From Verrucomicrobiota bacterium (GTDB lineage Bacteria; Verrucomicrobiota; Verrucomicrobiia; Chthoniobacterales; UBA10450): a DNA stretch of 36,619 nt. Position 1 is the first letter of the stretch; each line of letters starts with the position of its first letter. The position numbers and the translations under genes are program-made. Where the stretch lies: NCBI GenBank assembly GCA_003218135.1, contig QHNQ01000149.1, positions 1 through 36,619 of the forward strand, written 5' to 3'. Of this stretch, positions 2,680-10,940 are shown piece by piece. The notes beneath the pieces are model-generated. The model was given only the letters and a program-made list of their open reading frames with translations, made no database searches and was not told the DNA's origin.

Positions 2680-3795
2680 GTGGATCGCCGCCGTTTCATC
2701 AAAATCTCAACGGCCACTGCGCTTGCCGTGCACTCCAGATCGACATCTTTGTTCGCCGATACTAAACCGAAACCGATGCGAATCCTGATTCTTGGCGGCA
2801 CCGGATTCACCGGCCCATACCAGGTGCGGTACGCGCTGAGCCGCGGACATAAGGTGACGACGTTTAACCGAGGCAAAACGCATCCCGGTGAATTGCCAGG
2901 CGAAGTCGAGCAACTCATTGGCGACCGCAATGACAAACTGGACGCGTTGAAAAACCGGCAATGGGATGTGGTGATCGATAACCCGACTACGCTTCCGGCG
3001 TGGGTGCGTGACGCGGCGCAGATTCTCAAAGGCAACGTTGATCGCTATGTTTTTATCTCGACGATTTCCGTTTACGGCGAAGGGAAAACCGGCCCGGATG
3101 AAAATGCACCGACAGAAAAATACGAAGGCGCTGATCCGTACAAGGAGACGCTGGAGGCGATGAAAGCGGGCGGTTACAAAACCTATGGGCCGCTCAAGGC
3201 GCTCTCGGAGAAGGAAGCCGAGAAATGGTTTCCCGGTAAAACGCTGATCATTCGTCCGGGGCTAATCGTCGGCCCGCGCGATGAGACCGATCGCTTCACA
3301 TACTGGCCGGTGCGGATCGATCGCGGCGGCGAAGTTCTGGCGCCGGGTTCGCTTGAGGACCCGGTGCAATTTATTGACGCTCGCGACCTCGCTGAATGGA
3401 CGATCCGTATGGCCGAGAATCGCGAGACCGGAATTTACAACGCTACCGGTCCGGCTAAGCCGTTAGGCATCGGCCGAATGCTTGATGGGATCAAAGCTGG
3501 ATTGCAATCGAGTGCGACGTTCACATGGGTAACGGAAGATTTCCTCACGCAACACAAAGTCGAGCCGTGGTCGGACATGCCGGTGTGGACCGGAAAAGAG
3601 AGCGGACTCGCTCGCGCTAAGATCGGTCGCGCACTGAGCAAAGGCCTGACCTTCCGCCCATTGGCTGACACGGCGCGCGACACACTCGCCTGGTTTAAGT
3701 CACTCCCGCAAGATCGCCAATCCAAGCTCCGTGCCGGTCTTACGCCCGAGCGCGAGGCGGAAGTTTTGAACGCTTGGAAAAAAGAGAAACTGTAG
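2680..3795 (+). CDS. NAD(P)-dependent epimerase/reductase (extended SDR) with Tat leader
   Basis: A 371-residue protein starting at GTG 2680. The first residues MDRRRFIKIS form a Tat motif. A Rossmann glycine motif GGTGFTG follows at residues 39-45, and the SDR catalytic pair is seen as Tyr169 and Lys173 (YGPLK), with Ser127/Ser130 in FISTISVYG. It resembles NAD-dependent epimerase/dehydratase or isoflavone-reductase-like proteins common in soil bacteria; the substrate cannot be named. The last two codons, CTG TAG, are the left end of a twin-hairpin repeat (3791-3844). A cytosolic start at the Met of MRILILGG (residue 33) is possible if the leader is wrong, but the RRRFIK motif supports the longer form. 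Confidence 0.85.
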   Translation: MDRRRFIKISTATALAVHSRSTSLFADTKPKPMRILILGGTGFTGPYQVRYALSRGHKVTTFNRGKTHPGELPGEVEQLIGDRNDKLDALKNRQWDVVIDNPTTLPAWVRDAAQILKGNVDRYVFISTISVYGEGKTGPDENAPTEKYEGADPYKETLEAMKAGGYKTYGPLKALSEKEAEKWFPGKTLIIRPGLIVGPRDETDRFTYWPVRIDRGGEVLAPGSLEDPVQFIDARDLAEWTIRMAENRETGIYNATGPAKPLGIGRMLDGIKAGLQSSATFTWVTEDFLTQHKVEPWSDMPVWTGKESGLARAKIGRALSKGLTFRPLADTARDTLAWFKSLPQDRQSKLRAGLTPEREAEVLNAWKKEKL

Positions 3796-3844
3796 CCGCG
3801 TCCGTATGCGACGCGTGCGCGCGGCCCACAGGGCCGCGGCTACA
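3791..3844. repeat. Twin-arm palindromic repeat between SDR and MFS genes
   Basis: The arms TGTAGCCGCG (3791-3800) and CGCGGCTACA (3835-3844) are perfect inverted repeats around a GC-rich core that can itself pair. The left arm contains the TAG stop of the SDR gene. The right arm ends two bases before the ATG of the MFS gene, so there is no room for a Shine-Dalgarno site outside the repeat. The ends match the CTGTAG...CTACAG pattern of the repeats at 5643-5712 and 10877-10940. Confidence 0.7.
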
Positions 3845-3846
3845 AC

Positions 3847-5157
3847 ATGAAAAAACTGTTCGCTAAAATCGTTGATGTAAAACCGGACGAGATCCACGCG
3901 CTGCTGCTGGCATTCATCTTCAACTTTGTCGTTCTCGGCGGTTATTACGTGATTCGGCCAATCCGCGATGAGATCGGCGCCGACCGGGGCGTTGAAAATC
4001 TACCGTGGATGTACACTGGCACGTTGATCGGCATGTTAATCGCGAACGCGCTTTATGCCGCCATCGTCGCGCGCATGTCGCGGCGGCGGTTTATTCCGAT
4101 CGCGTATCGTTTCGCTATTGCGAACCTGTTCCTTTTCTTCCTCCTGATGCGGATCATGCCGGCGGCGCAGGGACGCGCGGTTCTCGCGCCCATATTTTTC
4201 ATCTGGGTCAGTGTCTTCAATCTTTTCGCAACAACGATGTTTTGGTCGTTCATGGCTGACGTTTTCACACCAGAGCAAGGGAAGCGGCTCTTCGGATTTA
4301 TTGCTGTCGGCGGATCAGTTGGCGGAATTGTTGGTGGTTTGGTCACGAGTTCGCTGGCCGGAAAGCTGAGCACCGGACTCTTCCTTCTCATCACAGCGGT
4401 CATGTTGGAGATTGCTGCGCAATGTGTGCGCCGATTTCCAGCCGATTCTCGGGCGCATGACGAGCAAAGTGAGCAACCAATCGGCGGCAAATTCTGGGAA
4501 GGCGCGACGCACATTGCTCGATCTCCCTATTTACTCGGTCTAGCGGGGTTTCTCATGATCTACACGCTCACGAACACGTGGGCATATTTTCAACAATCTG
4601 ACCTTACAGCACATCAACTGCAGGACCGGGCCGCGCGCACGTCGTTCCTGGCAAACATCGATATCGCGGTGAACACGATCACGGTGCTGATCCAAATTTC
4701 CCTGACCGGCCGCCTGATGAAATGGTTTGGGGTTGGAATCACGCTGGTGCTGATGCCACTTTTAAGTGCCGTCGGATTTGCGGCGATCGGCTTCGCACCC
4801 ATTCTCAGCGTTCTTGCGACGTTCCAGATTTTGCGACGGGCCGCAGGGTTCGCGCTACTACGACCAGCGCGCGAAGTCCTCTTCACCGTGTTGCGGCGAG
4901 AAGACAAATACAAAGCCAAGAGCCTCATCGACACATTCGGCTACCGCTTTGGCGATCAAATCGGCGCGTGGTCCTATCCATTAATGCGGTGGCTTGGCTT
5001 GGGACTGGTCGGCATTTCCTGGGTTGCAGTTCCGCTTGGAGCAATCTGGTGCGTGCTGAGCATCTGGCTCGGTCGCAAACAACGCGCTCTAGCCGACGCG
5101 CAAATCAAAAGAGATCAAAACGCAGCATTCGGCGGCGCTGCGGCGGAACCGGCGTGA
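3847..5157 (+). CDS. MFS carrier related to ATP/ADP translocase (NTT/Tlc-like) proteins
   Basis: A 436-residue polytopic membrane protein with roughly 11-12 hydrophobic segments. The first begins near residue 17 after a short cytosolic MKKLFAKIVDVKPDE. The early GGYYVIRPIRDEIG and the later FWSFMADVFTPEQGKRLFGF segment are typical of MFS proteins grouped with the bacterial ATP/ADP (NTP/NDP) exchangers of Chlamydia and Rickettsia. Free-living bacteria also carry such homologues with unknown cargo, so nucleotide exchange is only a possibility. The gene starts right after a palindromic repeat and has no recognisable Shine-Dalgarno site. The next gene downstream, 65 bp away, encodes an OsmC protein. 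Confidence 0.8.
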   Translation: MKKLFAKIVDVKPDEIHALLLAFIFNFVVLGGYYVIRPIRDEIGADRGVENLPWMYTGTLIGMLIANALYAAIVARMSRRRFIPIAYRFAIANLFLFFLLMRIMPAAQGRAVLAPIFFIWVSVFNLFATTMFWSFMADVFTPEQGKRLFGFIAVGGSVGGIVGGLVTSSLAGKLSTGLFLLITAVMLEIAAQCVRRFPADSRAHDEQSEQPIGGKFWEGATHIARSPYLLGLAGFLMIYTLTNTWAYFQQSDLTAHQLQDRAARTSFLANIDIAVNTITVLIQISLTGRLMKWFGVGITLVLMPLLSAVGFAAIGFAPILSVLATFQILRRAAGFALLRPAREVLFTVLRREDKYKAKSLIDTFGYRFGDQIGAWSYPLMRWLGLGLVGISWVAVPLGAIWCVLSIWLGRKQRALADAQIKRDQNAAFGGAAAEPA

Positions 5158-5207
5158 GTTGCGCGCACGCGTCTCCGAGGCGAAACGTAAACGAACAAAT
5201 CAAAATC

Positions 5208-5215
5208 AAAGGAGG
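5208..5215 (+). promoter_or_regulatory. Strong Shine-Dalgarno site of the OsmC gene
   Basis: AAAGGAGG lies 7 nt before ATG 5223. It is one of the few strong Shine-Dalgarno sites in the window. It fixes the OsmC start and rules out a longer reading in the same frame that runs back through the MFS gene. Confidence 0.85.
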
Positions 5216-5222
5216 AAAGACA

Positions 5223-5648
5223 ATGGCGACACGAACTGGATCGGCAGTGTGGGAAGGGACACTCAAGCAAGGCAAAGGAAACATGAAACTTGGCAGCGGC
5301 GCATTTGAAGGCCCGTATTCATTTTTATCGCGCTTCGAAGAAGGGAAGGGGACGAACCCGGAAGAACTCATCGGCGCAGCCGAAGCTGGCTGCTTCTCGA
5401 TGGCGCTCTCGGCAAATCTGGAAAAGGCCGGTCATCCGGCGAAACGAATCAGCACGACAGCGACCGTGAAATTGGAAATGGTCGGCGGTGGTCCAAAGAT
5501 CACGACGATCGATCTAAAAACCGAAGCGGAGGTACCAGGCATAGACGAAGCGAAATTTCGCGAGCAAGCCGAGCATACAAAGAAAACCTGCCCGGTATCA
5601 GTCGTTCTGGCAGGCGCGCAGATTAATCTCGACGCGAAATTGCTGTAG
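5223..5648 (+). CDS. OsmC/Ohr-family peroxidase-like protein
   Basis: A 141-residue protein of usual OsmC length. The two redox cysteines of the family are present: one in AAEAGCFSMAL near the middle helix and one in KKTCPVSVVLAG near the C-terminus. OsmC proteins are cytosolic, thiol-dependent peroxidases that reduce organic hydroperoxides, often using dihydrolipoyl proteins. The product probably defends against oxidative stress. The start is fixed by the Shine-Dalgarno site at 5208. The last two codons, CTG TAG, are the left end of a twin-hairpin repeat. Confidence 0.92.
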   Translation: MATRTGSAVWEGTLKQGKGNMKLGSGAFEGPYSFLSRFEEGKGTNPEELIGAAEAGCFSMALSANLEKAGHPAKRISTTATVKLEMVGGGPKITTIDLKTEAEVPGIDEAKFREQAEHTKKTCPVSVVLAGAQINLDAKLL

Positions 5649-5712
5649 CGGCAGGCGTGTCGCCTGCAAAACCGAGAGCTGACAGTGCAGCCGGCACGGC
5701 TGCCACCACAGC
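5643..5712. repeat. Twin-hairpin repeat between convergent osmC-like and M20 genes
   Basis: Two small perfect hairpins, each with a 7-bp stem and a 3-nt loop, lie at 5651-5667 (GCAGGCG-TGT-CGCCTGC) and 5687-5703 (GCAGCCG-GCA-CGGCTGC). They sit inside an outer inverted repeat (GCTGTAGCGGCA versus TGCCACCACAGC, 10 of 12 matching). The element lies between two convergent genes and could act as a bidirectional terminator. Its left end supplies the TAG stop of the OsmC gene. Confidence 0.8.
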
Positions 5713-7205: not shown

Positions 7206-9428
7206 TTAAAGTGCGAGGGTTTCTTGCGTTTGTGCTGAGGCTGTTACTACCAGACTGCTGAATTTTTTCACCAGCTCGTCGAGCTTGGCGACATAGTAAT
7301 CAACATTTTCATCGCGGTTTCCGGGATCGAATTCCCTGGCCAGTTTGGCGGCTTCGTAGGCGGGAACTTTTTTCGGCGTCGCTTTGATGTAGTAACTGAT
7401 CTGATCGCCCGGCTTGTAATTGCGGCCACTGGCGAGAGCCAGCTCGTAAGCAGCGGCACGATTGCGCGCGGAGCCAGCAATTTTTGAACGATATTTATCG
7501 AGCGAATCCTGGAGTGTGTCGGTCTTCATCAGCATGTCGATTTTCCATTCGCGGTTCCGAATTTTTCGCTCGAACCCATTCCTAAGATCGGCGATCGCTT
7601 CCGGTTTGCCCTCCATGATGAGCTTGATCATTTCCTCGAGGAAAACGCGCTGGAATTTTTCCAGTCCGCGCGATTTGAGCGCGCCGCCTTTGATGATCAC
7701 GTCACCGTCTTTTGTGAGCAGCGCGTAATTCTTCGCTTTGTAACTGAACATCGCATCGAATTGCTCGTCGATTTCGACATCGATTCCGGGCGGCAAGATT
7801 TGCGATAGACCTTTTTGCAGCTCGTCGGTCGTAGACGCGGCGTCCCGCCGCGTTTCTTCGCCAGTCTCCACGCGACGAGGCGTCGCGTCCACAGGCGGCA
7901 CGAAATAAATTCCGTCAGTATCGACCTCGATGACCTGCGCGCCGTGCGCATTGAGCCACTCAATCATCTCCTTGAGCAGATCGCGCCCGATCTGCGTCAC
8001 TCGCGCAGCGGCATCGAAATCGGCGAAATGTCCCTGCGCAAATCCAAGGTACCCGTAGAAGCTGTTCAGCAGAATTTTGAACGTGTTCTGCAGCGCTTGG
8101 AGATGATGTTGTCTTGCGGGATCCTTTTCCGCACGCATTTGCGCCTTTGCTTCCAACCGGAAAGTGCGGAGATCGGTCAGTAAATGTTGAAAGATTTGGA
8201 GTTGGTCAGTCGCCGGAAAACATTCGAATTGCAACATCACCGACGGATAGAGCGAGGCGATGTCGCAGTGCCAGACGTTGCGCGCCACCCCGGTGAAGAA
8301 GATGTCGGTGTAGCCACCTTCGAAAGCGCGCGGCATCGGCAACTCGGGAATGGAATGGCGTTGCCGAAAATATTCGCGCAGGAAAAGTGCATTGATGCGT
8401 GTGGCGTTGCCGCGCACGATCACGTCCTGGTAATTATAGGGAAAGATCTGCGCCTGGATGAAGTAGCTCGGGCTTAGCAAGTCCGACAATGCGCGGGTTT
8501 CCCGAACGCCACACAGAGCGCGTCGCCGGAACATTTCTGAATCACCCAGGGATGCACGCTCCAATTCCTTGCCAGTGAGTGATGAGATTTGTTCGCTCTC
8601 GCAGAGATCAAAGTGCCGCGCGACGTCCGAACGCTCGAAACCTGCCAGTGAACGCATCCCGACGTCGTAAAACTGCACGAGCAAAAACGTATCGACAAAG
8701 TGGCGGCCATCGATTGTGAACTTTGGATAATCGATTGTTTTTTCCGCGATCTGCAGTCGTGACGGACGCGAGCGCAGAAACCCGCCGCTGCGTCCCCAAT
8801 CTAGTTTTGTCTTGAGCTTTTTCGAGCGCGCTACGAGCAGCGGAAAATGAACGCGGAACAAATCGTGACCTTCGATCACATCCGGATCGTGTTGTTTGAT
8901 GAGAGCGGTCAGGCGTTTCAGAGCGGCGCGCTCGGACTCCTCAATATTGGTTGGATCGACAACTATCAATTCTTCCCACCGGTTGTTATCCGACAGCGCG
9001 ATGCTCATGATGTGCTCATCAGTCGCGAGCACTTCAATCTGCATGCGTTTCAATTGCTCGAACGGCAGGTCCTTGAACAACGTACGGCCAGTGGCCGTGA
9101 GGTAATGCTGCACCGGATCGGTGAACGCGAAGAAATCGCGGCCGGCGCTCTTCAGCCCATTGCGCAATGCGATTAGTTCTTTCCAGCTATCGACCGTGAC
9201 CAGCCAGCCATATTTGAGATCCCCCTGCAGTTTTTCGGCTTCGATGCCCAGATCGACCACGTCAGAATCAGCCCAGACGAACGGATGAAACGGTTCGACA
9301 TCTGTGACTGTCGATCCATTGGTTTCGCGACGATGAACACGAACCGTGCCGGTCTCACCGAGCTCAACAGCGACAATTCGCGGCGTCGGATCGGCACCAA
9401 AAAGCAGCGTGTTTTTCTCAAATTCCAT
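7206..9428 (-). CDS. Family-B DNA polymerase with degenerate exonuclease motifs
   Basis: A 740-residue PolB-type polymerase. Palm motif A is D389-IASLYPS. Motif B is KILLNSFYG (451-459). Motif C is DTDG with D503 and D505. These are intact, so polymerase activity is likely. The 3'-5' exonuclease motifs are eroded: the Exo I segment reads MQIEVL (Asp replaced by Gln130) and the Exo II segment reads HDLFRVHF (Asn to Asp189, Asp to His194). Proofreading is therefore probably lost. The role may be repair or damage tolerance, as for E. coli Pol II, but this is inference. Residues of about 513-534 are encoded by a twin-hairpin repeat lying in frame. The stop is 3 bp from the start of the downstream M20 gene. 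Confidence 0.88.
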   Translation of the reverse strand: MEFEKNTLLFGADPTPRIVAVELGETGTVRVHRRETNGSTVTDVEPFHPFVWADSDVVDLGIEAEKLQGDLKYGWLVTVDSWKELIALRNGLKSAGRDFFAFTDPVQHYLTATGRTLFKDLPFEQLKRMQIEVLATDEHIMSIALSDNNRWEELIVVDPTNIEESERAALKRLTALIKQHDPDVIEGHDLFRVHFPLLVARSKKLKTKLDWGRSGGFLRSRPSRLQIAEKTIDYPKFTIDGRHFVDTFLLVQFYDVGMRSLAGFERSDVARHFDLCESEQISSLTGKELERASLGDSEMFRRRALCGVRETRALSDLLSPSYFIQAQIFPYNYQDVIVRGNATRINALFLREYFRQRHSIPELPMPRAFEGGYTDIFFTGVARNVWHCDIASLYPSVMLQFECFPATDQLQIFQHLLTDLRTFRLEAKAQMRAEKDPARQHHLQALQNTFKILLNSFYGYLGFAQGHFADFDAAARVTQIGRDLLKEMIEWLNAHGAQVIEVDTDGIYFVPPVDATPRRVETGEETRRDAASTTDELQKGLSQILPPGIDVEIDEQFDAMFSYKAKNYALLTKDGDVIIKGGALKSRGLEKFQRVFLEEMIKLIMEGKPEAIADLRNGFERKIRNREWKIDMLMKTDTLQDSLDKYRSKIAGSARNRAAAYELALASGRNYKPGDQISYYIKATPKKVPAYEAAKLAREFDPGNRDENVDYYVAKLDELVKKFSSLVVTASAQTQETLAL
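7830..7893. repeat. Twin-hairpin repeat embedded in frame in the polymerase gene
   Basis: Two hairpins with 3-nt loops are present: GCGGCG-TCC-CGCCGC (7837-7851) and CGCGACG-AGG-CGTCGCG (7871-7887). They are flanked by outer arms GTAGACGCGGCG and CGTCGCGTCCAC (10 of 12 paired). The architecture equals that of the intergenic elements at 5643 and 10877. Here it lies inside the polymerase gene just after motif C and is read through as about 22 Arg/Thr/Glu-rich residues. Confidence 0.75.
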
Positions 9429-9444
9429 CTACAACCAACCTTTC

Positions 9445-9531
9445 TGTCATTCCGAGCGAAGTCGAGGAATCTCTTACTGTGATTGCACAGAATGAGAATT
9501 CAGGGATGCTTCGCCTTCGCCCAGCATGACA
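9445..9531. repeat. Palindromic dispersed repeat, TGTCAT-ended (copy 2)
   Basis: The left end TGTCATTCCGAGCGAAG and the right end, read on the other strand as TGTCATGCTGGGCGAAGG, are imperfect inverted repeats. They match the ends of the element at 2-160. This copy is 87 bp long and fills the region between the divergent polymerase and M20D genes, so the promoters of both genes must lie in or next to it. Confidence 0.75.
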
Positions 9532-9534
9532 CGT

Positions 9535-10875
9535 ATGACGGCTCGCTCCTTGATCTTCTTGCCATCGATACTCCTTCCGGCGCTCGCGTTTGCGCAGCAA
9601 ACACCGCAATCGCCTACCGAGGCGGAATTGACGTCGCTATTGGCGATTTACAAAGACATTCACGCGCATCCTGAGCTATCAATGCATGAGGAACGTTCCG
9701 CTTCGATCGTGGCCAAGGAATTGAAAGCCGCCGGCTGCGAAGTGACCGAGCGCGTCGGCAAGTATGAAAAGCCGGGAGCAACTTGTTTTGGCGTTGTAGG
9801 CGTGATGAAGAATGGCGCTGGCCCGACTGTGCTGGCGCGCACAGATCTGGATGCGCTGCCAGTGCACGAAGAGACTGGGTTGCCCTACGCGAGCACCGTC
9901 ACGACAAAAAATGACGAAGGGAAAGAAGTTCCCGTGATGCACGCGTGCGGGCACGACGCGCATATTTCCATGTTCATTGGAGTGGCACGAGTTCTCGCGA
10001 AATTGAAAGATCAATGGCACGGCACCATCGTGTTCGTAGCGCAGCCGGCGGAAGAGACCGGTAATGGGGCGCGCGCATTACTCCGGGCAGGTCTTTACGA
10101 AAAATTCGGCAAACCGAATTTCGCGCTCGGATTCCACGATAAGGCCGACATGCAGACGGGCCACATTGGGGTCACCGAAGGTTACACCTATGCCAACGTC
10201 GATTCAGTAGATGTGATCGTGCGCGGCGTGGGAGGGCACGGCGCGTATCCGCACAAGACGAAAGACCCGATTGTGCTCGCGGCAGAGATGATCAATACGT
10301 GGCAAACCATAGCCAGCCGCGAAAATAATCCGCTCGACCCAATCGTTGTCACTGTTGGCTCAATTCATGGCGGCACAAAGCACAACATTATTCCAGACGA
10401 AGTGAAAATGCAGTTGACCGTGCGCACCTATAAACCCGAGACGCGCGAGCGCGTGCTGGCGGCAATCGATCAAATTGCAAAGGGCTGCGCCATGGCAGCT
10501 GGCATTCCTCCGGACCGCGCACCGATCGTCAGCGTAGCCAAAGATCAATTCACGCCCGCGACTTACAATAATCCGGAGCTCACGAAACGGCTGCTGGCTG
10601 CATGGAAAAAGACGCTAGGCAACGAAAACGTGGAGATTGTTGACGCGACCATGGGTGGCGAAGATTTTTCTGAATATAGCTTGCCGGATCATTCGATTCC
10701 GGCAGTTGATTTTCATATCGGCGCGGTGGACCCCGTGAAAATCGCCGACAGCAAAAAGAATGGTACGATGTTGCCGAGTTTGCATTCGAGCAAATTCGCA
10801 CCGGTTCCCGAGCCCACCATTCGCACGGGCATTATTGCGATGACAGCAGCCGTGCTGGAGTTGACGAAGAAATAA
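9535..10875 (+). CDS. Exported M20D amidohydrolase (hippurate/indole-amidohydrolase-like)
   Basis: A 446-residue protein from ATG 9535, with a signal peptide ending near ALAFAQQ. M20D metal ligands are visible: HACGHDAH (Cys and His), PAEE (Glu), the His of GFHDKA, and a late His in LHSSKFAP. The family hydrolyses N-acyl or N-aroyl amino acids such as hippurate, N-acetylated amino acids and indole-acetyl amino acids. The leader implies a periplasmic or secreted form. The frame stays open to an ATG at 9526, which lies inside the TGTCAT repeat, but the 9535 start gives a cleaner signal peptide. No Shine-Dalgarno site is evident. It is divergent from the polymerase gene. Confidence 0.87.
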   Translation: MTARSLIFLPSILLPALAFAQQTPQSPTEAELTSLLAIYKDIHAHPELSMHEERSASIVAKELKAAGCEVTERVGKYEKPGATCFGVVGVMKNGAGPTVLARTDLDALPVHEETGLPYASTVTTKNDEGKEVPVMHACGHDAHISMFIGVARVLAKLKDQWHGTIVFVAQPAEETGNGARALLRAGLYEKFGKPNFALGFHDKADMQTGHIGVTEGYTYANVDSVDVIVRGVGGHGAYPHKTKDPIVLAAEMINTWQTIASRENNPLDPIVVTVGSIHGGTKHNIIPDEVKMQLTVRTYKPETRERVLAAIDQIAKGCAMAAGIPPDRAPIVSVAKDQFTPATYNNPELTKRLLAAWKKTLGNENVEIVDATMGGEDFSEYSLPDHSIPAVDFHIGAVDPVKIADSKKNGTMLPSLHSSKFAPVPEPTIRTGIIAMTAAVLELTKK

Positions 10876-10876
10876 A

Positions 10877-10940
10877 CTGTAGCGGCCGGCGAGTCGCTGG
10901 CAGATCAAAGAATTACAGCCGACACGGCTGCCTCTACAGC
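10877..10940. repeat. Twin-hairpin repeat between convergent M20D gene and ftsZ
   Basis: The outer arms CTGTAGCGGC and the reverse complement of TGCCTCTACAGC pair imperfectly. An inner hairpin CAGCCG-ACA-CGGCTG (10916-10930) is perfect. The element fills the gap between the stop of the M20D gene and the stop of ftsZ, so it is a candidate bidirectional terminator for the end of the dcw cluster. Confidence 0.75.

Follow-up and report, generated by a model that had tools for sequence, protein, structure and literature searches.

How does a palindromic repeat come to lie, translated and in frame, beside motif C of a DNA polymerase, and why does the same position in related genes hold other repeats or none? 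The locus that raises this question is a twin hairpin at positions 7831-7892 of a 36,619-nucleotide stretch of Verrucomicrobiota DNA (hereafter the window, that is, the whole stretch analysed). In our assessment, the element is very probably a REPIN, an inverted pair of GTAG-type REPs, that inserted into a tolerant loop of the polymerase, and different REPIN families have very probably entered this loop many times over, independently of one another. The evidence for this reading, and the alternatives to it, are considered below.

The twin hairpin, its host gene and its relatives

The host gene (7206-9428, minus strand) encodes a family-B DNA polymerase of 740 amino acids, recognized by Pfam (PF00136, 97 bits; PF03104, 28 bits) and by its relatives in the PDB, with motif A (HCDIASLYPS), motif B and motif C (DTDG) all intact. 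The nearest solved folds of the polymerase model are archaeal B-family polymerases (9N/KOD/Pab PolB). The position of the Exo I aspartate is occupied by Q (RMQxE/D) in all the commonest variants of a 53-sequence polymerase alignment, which suggests that the proofreading site may be inactive; in this genome, the Exo II motif is altered too (HDLFRVHF). Just upstream of the gene, at approximately 9435-9535 of the window, there is a TGTCATTCCGAGCGAAG...GAGGAATCTC-type repeat, and similar sequence occurs in the open frame upstream of the polymerase start in some relatives (L020 and L026). One MAG, G028, contains two polymerase copies (contigs C341 and C78), the second of which is nearly identical to that of G021 and is probably a contaminant.

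The element, which lies within the minus-strand gene, is 62 bp long and has the layout GTAG-hairpin-spacer-hairpin-CCAC. Hairpin 1 (7835-7853; ACGCGGCG-TCC-CGCCGCGT) adjoins the GTAG tag at 7831-7834, and hairpin 2 (7870-7888; ACGCGACG-AGG-CGTCGCGT), which follows the spacer, adjoins the CCAC at 7889-7892, which is GTGG on the coding strand and corresponds to codon V513. The two tags remain unpaired at the feet of the hairpins, and the two palindromes are short, opposite in orientation and face each other, as in a dimer of GTAG-type REPs; GTGG is a reported tag variant in Opitutus terrae (PMC3733652). The original prediction, made from this sequence, described stems of 6-7 bp with 3-nt loops inside GTAG...CTAC-type arms: the loops and the GTAG hold, whereas both stems are 8 bp long and the other end is CCAC. 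The folding energy of the element has a z score of -3.9 on the plus strand and -3.7 on the minus strand relative to 200 dinucleotide shuffles, of which one and none, respectively, fold as well. A strict REPIN detector recovers three elements in the window (3792-3843, 5645-5709 and 7831-7892) and none in the reversed window.

The 740-residue frame is unbroken across the element, which begins eight residues past D505 of motif C (D503-T-D505), as predicted, and is translated as V513-T533 (VDATPRRVETGEETRRDAAST), 21 residues compared with the approximately 22 (513-534) originally proposed. In an AlphaFold model built with the 53-sequence alignment, the insert sits in a low-confidence loop after the motif-C strand, between two well-predicted elements, strand 506-510 and helix 523-544. 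The mean pLDDT of the model is 88.9, but the blocks covering residues 511-530 have values of 65 and 52, and residues 519-522 fall below 50; the low model confidence of the insert is consistent with disorder.

The window also contains intergenic elements of the same general build. A type-B REPIN at 5645-5709 was found by sequence and by the strict detector, and another, with a degenerate first hairpin, was recognized at 10879-10937 by sequence and fold. The polymerase element had been likened to these two (placed at 5643 and 10877); the likeness extends to the architecture, but membership in the same family is rejected because the sequences differ, the polymerase element being of type A. A third intergenic REPIN (3792-3843) has the tag GTAGCCGCG, which resembles that of family H. 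REP tags are known to give stop codons to neighbouring ORFs (PMC3733652); in the window, the GTAG of the 5645-5709 element supplies a TAG stop (5646-5648) to the upstream ORF 4722-5648, and that of the 3792-3843 element a TAG stop (3793-3795) to ORF 2680-3795.

We compared genomes of soil Verrucomicrobiota close to Candidatus Udaeobacter together with other Chthoniobacterales. Family A is rare and weakly dispersed, with three copies in this genome and few in 5 others. The genome search proposed in the original prediction yielded further type-A copies that also lie in frame within genes, one in a class-III aminotransferase (contig C192; VDAAPRRAFGEKRRGAAST) and one in an aconitase (contig C104; GGGDASSPKGQHGEGAAST), and close family-A copies in two relatives are likewise located within long ORFs. 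A match in GlnRS on contig C81 (L003) was rejected as an insertion, being what we take to be native GlnRS sequence. Family B is present in 35/35 genomes of the genus, with 2-51 matches each and 0 in the reversed-pattern control, and family C is likewise found in 35/35, with reversed-pattern controls near zero.

RAYT-like Y1 transposases (PF01797) are encoded in 33/35 genomes of the genus. At two loci (G016:C57 and G015:C400), family-C REPs flank the RAYT ORF as inverted pairs, and these ORFs carry the HVH motif and a C-terminal Y motif, SYxQKWDYV; at a third (G024:C67), family-C REPs again occur on both sides. Among 32 RAYT loci, themselves part of a larger number, none had family A or B on its flanks, and the three RAYT candidates of this genome are flanked by palindromes that, by eye, are of other sequence. 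The arrangement at the family-C loci supports mobilization of this family by RAYTs, and the shared architecture makes it plausible that RAYTs also moved families A and B. Together with the dispersed copies and with the empty and filled alleles described below, the REPs flanking family-C RAYTs support the mobility of these elements, and the proposal that a mobile repeat is tolerated in a surface loop fares well given the low-confidence location of the insert in the model.

The polymerase loop as a recurrent insertion site

In 15 members of the genus, the allele is empty, with 28 residues from DTDG to LPP, and outgroups from other families (L109-L132, order level) are empty as well or differ by a few residues. 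Filled alleles contain 16-37 extra residues, which belong to at least eight unrelated insert families (A, B, C, D, E, G, H and I), one of which, D, lacks the GTAG tag and has a different inverted repeat. The comparison with relatives suggested in the original prediction thus comes out in its favour: residues 513-533 are missing from every more distant homologue and from roughly half of the family, unrelated palindromes replace them at the same loop in other close relatives, and no homologue was found that keeps these residues without palindromes in its DNA.

Under the reading that we prefer, the 62-bp twin hairpin would be a non-autonomous element made of two inverted, GTAG-tagged REPs and belonging to a class whose movement is attributed to RAYT (TnpA-REP) HUH transposases. 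It would have inserted into the loop that leads from the motif-C strand to the palm helix after it. The frame would have been kept without a stop, yielding a 21-residue linker tolerated, we propose, because the loop is flexible, and different REPIN families would have hit the same loop independently, many times within the family. The polymerase with the insert is presumably made and active.

The codon phase of the inserts fits this scheme. All 27 scorable tags are in phase 0, located 0-15 nt past the PP codons in 25 of the 27 and 36-39 nt past them in the other two. In phase 0, GTAG is read as GTA, that is, Val, and in phase 1 the TAG of the tag would be read; the single phase is seen presumably because insertions in other phases shift the frame or introduce the TAG stop and are then lost. 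With a few rows with wrong automatic ends left out, the cores are nearly all 2 mod 3 in length, so that a core together with its CT...AG neighbours is divisible by 3; the binomial tests on 17/18 and 19/20 serve as illustration only, because the counts of host genes were made by eye. As a genome-wide sign of selection, length modulo 3 gave no clear difference between intragenic and other type-B copies.

The loop is filled much more often than the genome average would suggest. With the strict detector, polymerase genes yield 19 REPINs over 121 kb, compared with 6 over 272 kb for the DNA that flanks them (p 4e-6). From those densities, approximately 0.04-0.16 inserts are expected in the 30-nt loop over 66 genes vs 33 seen, so that about half of the 66 scored genes are occupied, at some 200-750 times the average REPIN density, a rough figure because the 33 inserts were counted by hand and the densities come from the strict detector. 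Loop tolerance explains the frame and the position but does not by itself explain why about half of the lineages are filled when almost none are predicted to be; therefore, an effect of targeting or retention is possible.

Targeting would mean that the loop is a true RAYT target, local sequence or single-strand structure directing the insertion and tolerance being secondary. This alternative, which we consider possible although clearly the less probable explanation, draws on the excess occupancy of the loop, on the enrichment of REPINs in polymerase coding sequences over their flanks, and on the fact that most tags here come after CT, the site cleaved by TnpA-REP; IS200/IS605 relatives select their sites through DNA-DNA guide pairing (PMC8266576). 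Counting against a directed insertion are tags that vary in position over 0-15 nt past the PP codons, the use of one loop by unrelated families with different hairpins, and the empty sites of the polymerase and FtsK, which by eye have no motif in common.

The polymerase loop is not the only such site. The polymerase gene has another recurrent REP site (9012-9029, minus strand; a loop of the exonuclease domain, approximately residues 134-139), which is empty here and contains single or paired family-C REPs in L008, L011, L012, L014, L017, L025, L026 and L027. In FtsK, most members of the genus have an insert of family B, of family C or of another family at a site located after the Walker A region and before IPDKIPYVVV; across L252-L280, at least three REPIN families are represented there, other members having degenerate inserts and four genomes short linkers, and the FtsK of this genome has a C-type insert at the linker. 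The linker site lies between Walker A and Walker B. More broadly, about 14 of 60 type-B sites sampled in four genomes are in frame inside long ORFs, many of them Pfam-confirmed, although the 60 sites were picked by type-B matches and so are not a census. The hosts include FtsK, MutS, a TreY-like GH13, methylmalonyl-CoA mutase, an exosortase and gamma-glutamyltransferase, among others; further loci beyond this sample add in-frame copies in UvrA and in an E2 linker. We tentatively raise the possibility, without favouring it, that some loops of DNA-processing proteins, such as those of the family-B polymerase and FtsK, are genuine capture sites at which REPINs, whatever their family, insert or are retained far above the genome rate. 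If so, REPINs would provide these proteins with a constant reserve of translated linkers that can be exchanged for one another.

Retention could reflect usefulness: a longer Ala/Ser/Pro-rich linker by the active-site palm, or in FtsK, would alter activity or fidelity. Intragenic REPs are enriched in genes for DNA synthesis/replication and repair, and Di Nocera et al. 2013 (PMC3733652) brought up a mutator role; the loops refilled here are those of proteins of the same class (polymerase, FtsK, MutS, UvrA). We nevertheless regard this explanation as unlikely, given that the inserts are unrelated and differ in length (a gain of 16-37 residues), that closely related species manage without an insert, and that many metabolic enzymes also hold REPINs. 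Overall, we infer that loop tolerance outweighs both target sequence and benefit.

Gene-tree evidence for repeated insertion

The distribution of inserts was traced on a 67-taxon polymerase gene tree built from an alignment with both insert sites left out. The states, labelled by eye from the hairpins (L091 and L094, both B, are partial), are 33 empty, 17 B, 4 C, 3 E, 3 H, 2 A, 2 I, 1 D, 1 G and 1 unknown. Parsimony requires 27 state changes, close to the values for shuffled labels (mean 30.1, sd 1.6, minimum 25), and even with free losses at least 16 insertions or replacements are needed. Two pairs of sister taxa are decisive: between L019 (B) and L044 (E), the flanks are nearly identical and the inserts unrelated, and L007 (C) differs in state from L011 (empty), again with nearly identical flanks. 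Type-B carriers are scattered on the whole-gene tree and do not group. In two of the type-B inserts (L065 and L094), the first hairpin is seemingly broken by a further short insertion.

These patterns bear on the notion that a single old REPIN insertion, followed by loss, mutation and gene conversion or recombination between species, produced the patchiness. Type B does occur on many branches (17 taxa), often with the same TCTTCT lead-in, and part of the B-type inserts may have been inherited rather than separately inserted. As an account of the whole, one ancient insertion is nonetheless improbable, somewhat more so than usefulness: mutation cannot yield unrelated families, the L019/L044 pair would require two crossovers hugging the insert, the type-B allele of L064 lies inside an otherwise empty clade, and the order-level outgroups are empty. 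Finally, that this is an ordinary variable loop in which GC-rich codons happen to be palindromic can be dismissed: the genome is GC-rich and loops are generally variable, but the shuffles (z about -3.9) and the reversed-sequence control (1 REPIN in 394 kb vs 25 forward) reject it, and for families B and C, whose sequences are dispersed intergenic repeats, it is already refuted.

Comparison with known repeat systems

Independent insertion of REPINs into a tolerant loop would add to a known theme. A literature search on Udaeobacter repeats found no paper. REPs are named 'extragenic', yet here they are repeatedly turned into protein, and the empty, single-family and multi-family alleles of sister species amount to a natural experiment on mobile DNA entering coding sequence, in which the polymerase loop allows insertion preference to be told apart from frame filtering and from protein tolerance. 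The case also bears on the suggestion that replication and repair enzymes decorated with REPs differ in activity.

Among known systems, REPINs and BIMEs associated with RAYTs (Bertels and Rainey 2011, PMC3116915; Corneloup et al. 2021, PMC8266576) share with the elements described here the inverted REP pair with a GTAG foot and, for family C only, RAYT genes between inverted REPs. Unlike classic REPINs, which are counted in extragenic space, many of the present copies are translated, and families A and B have no RAYT partner found. Rickettsia palindromic elements (Ogata et al. 2000, 2002, as summarised in PMC10969869) are likewise in-frame palindromic repeats tolerated in unrelated protein genes. 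By that summary's description, they are set apart by their size, approximately 150 bp as opposed to about 55-80 bp here (62 bp for the polymerase copy), and the description, as far as it extends, includes no GTAG tag or RAYT link.

Another close precedent is the survey of intragenic GTAG/CGTC REPs by Di Nocera et al. 2013 (PMC3733652), in which GTAG-tagged hairpin dimers inside ORFs, coding for 20-30 amino acids, are most numerous in O. terrae, also a member of Verrucomicrobiota. In that survey, one case, Xanthomonas recB, was 'about at the same site', the sites being otherwise different, whereas here, throughout one bacterial family, a single loop is occupied by at least eight insert families in a fixed codon phase, alongside empty alleles, and the states are placed on a gene tree. 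The kind of element is therefore already known, from intragenic GTAG REPs in repair genes and from Rickettsia palindromic elements; what is new is a mapped hot spot in which many families enter the same loop in a fixed phase, with both empty and filled alleles at hand.
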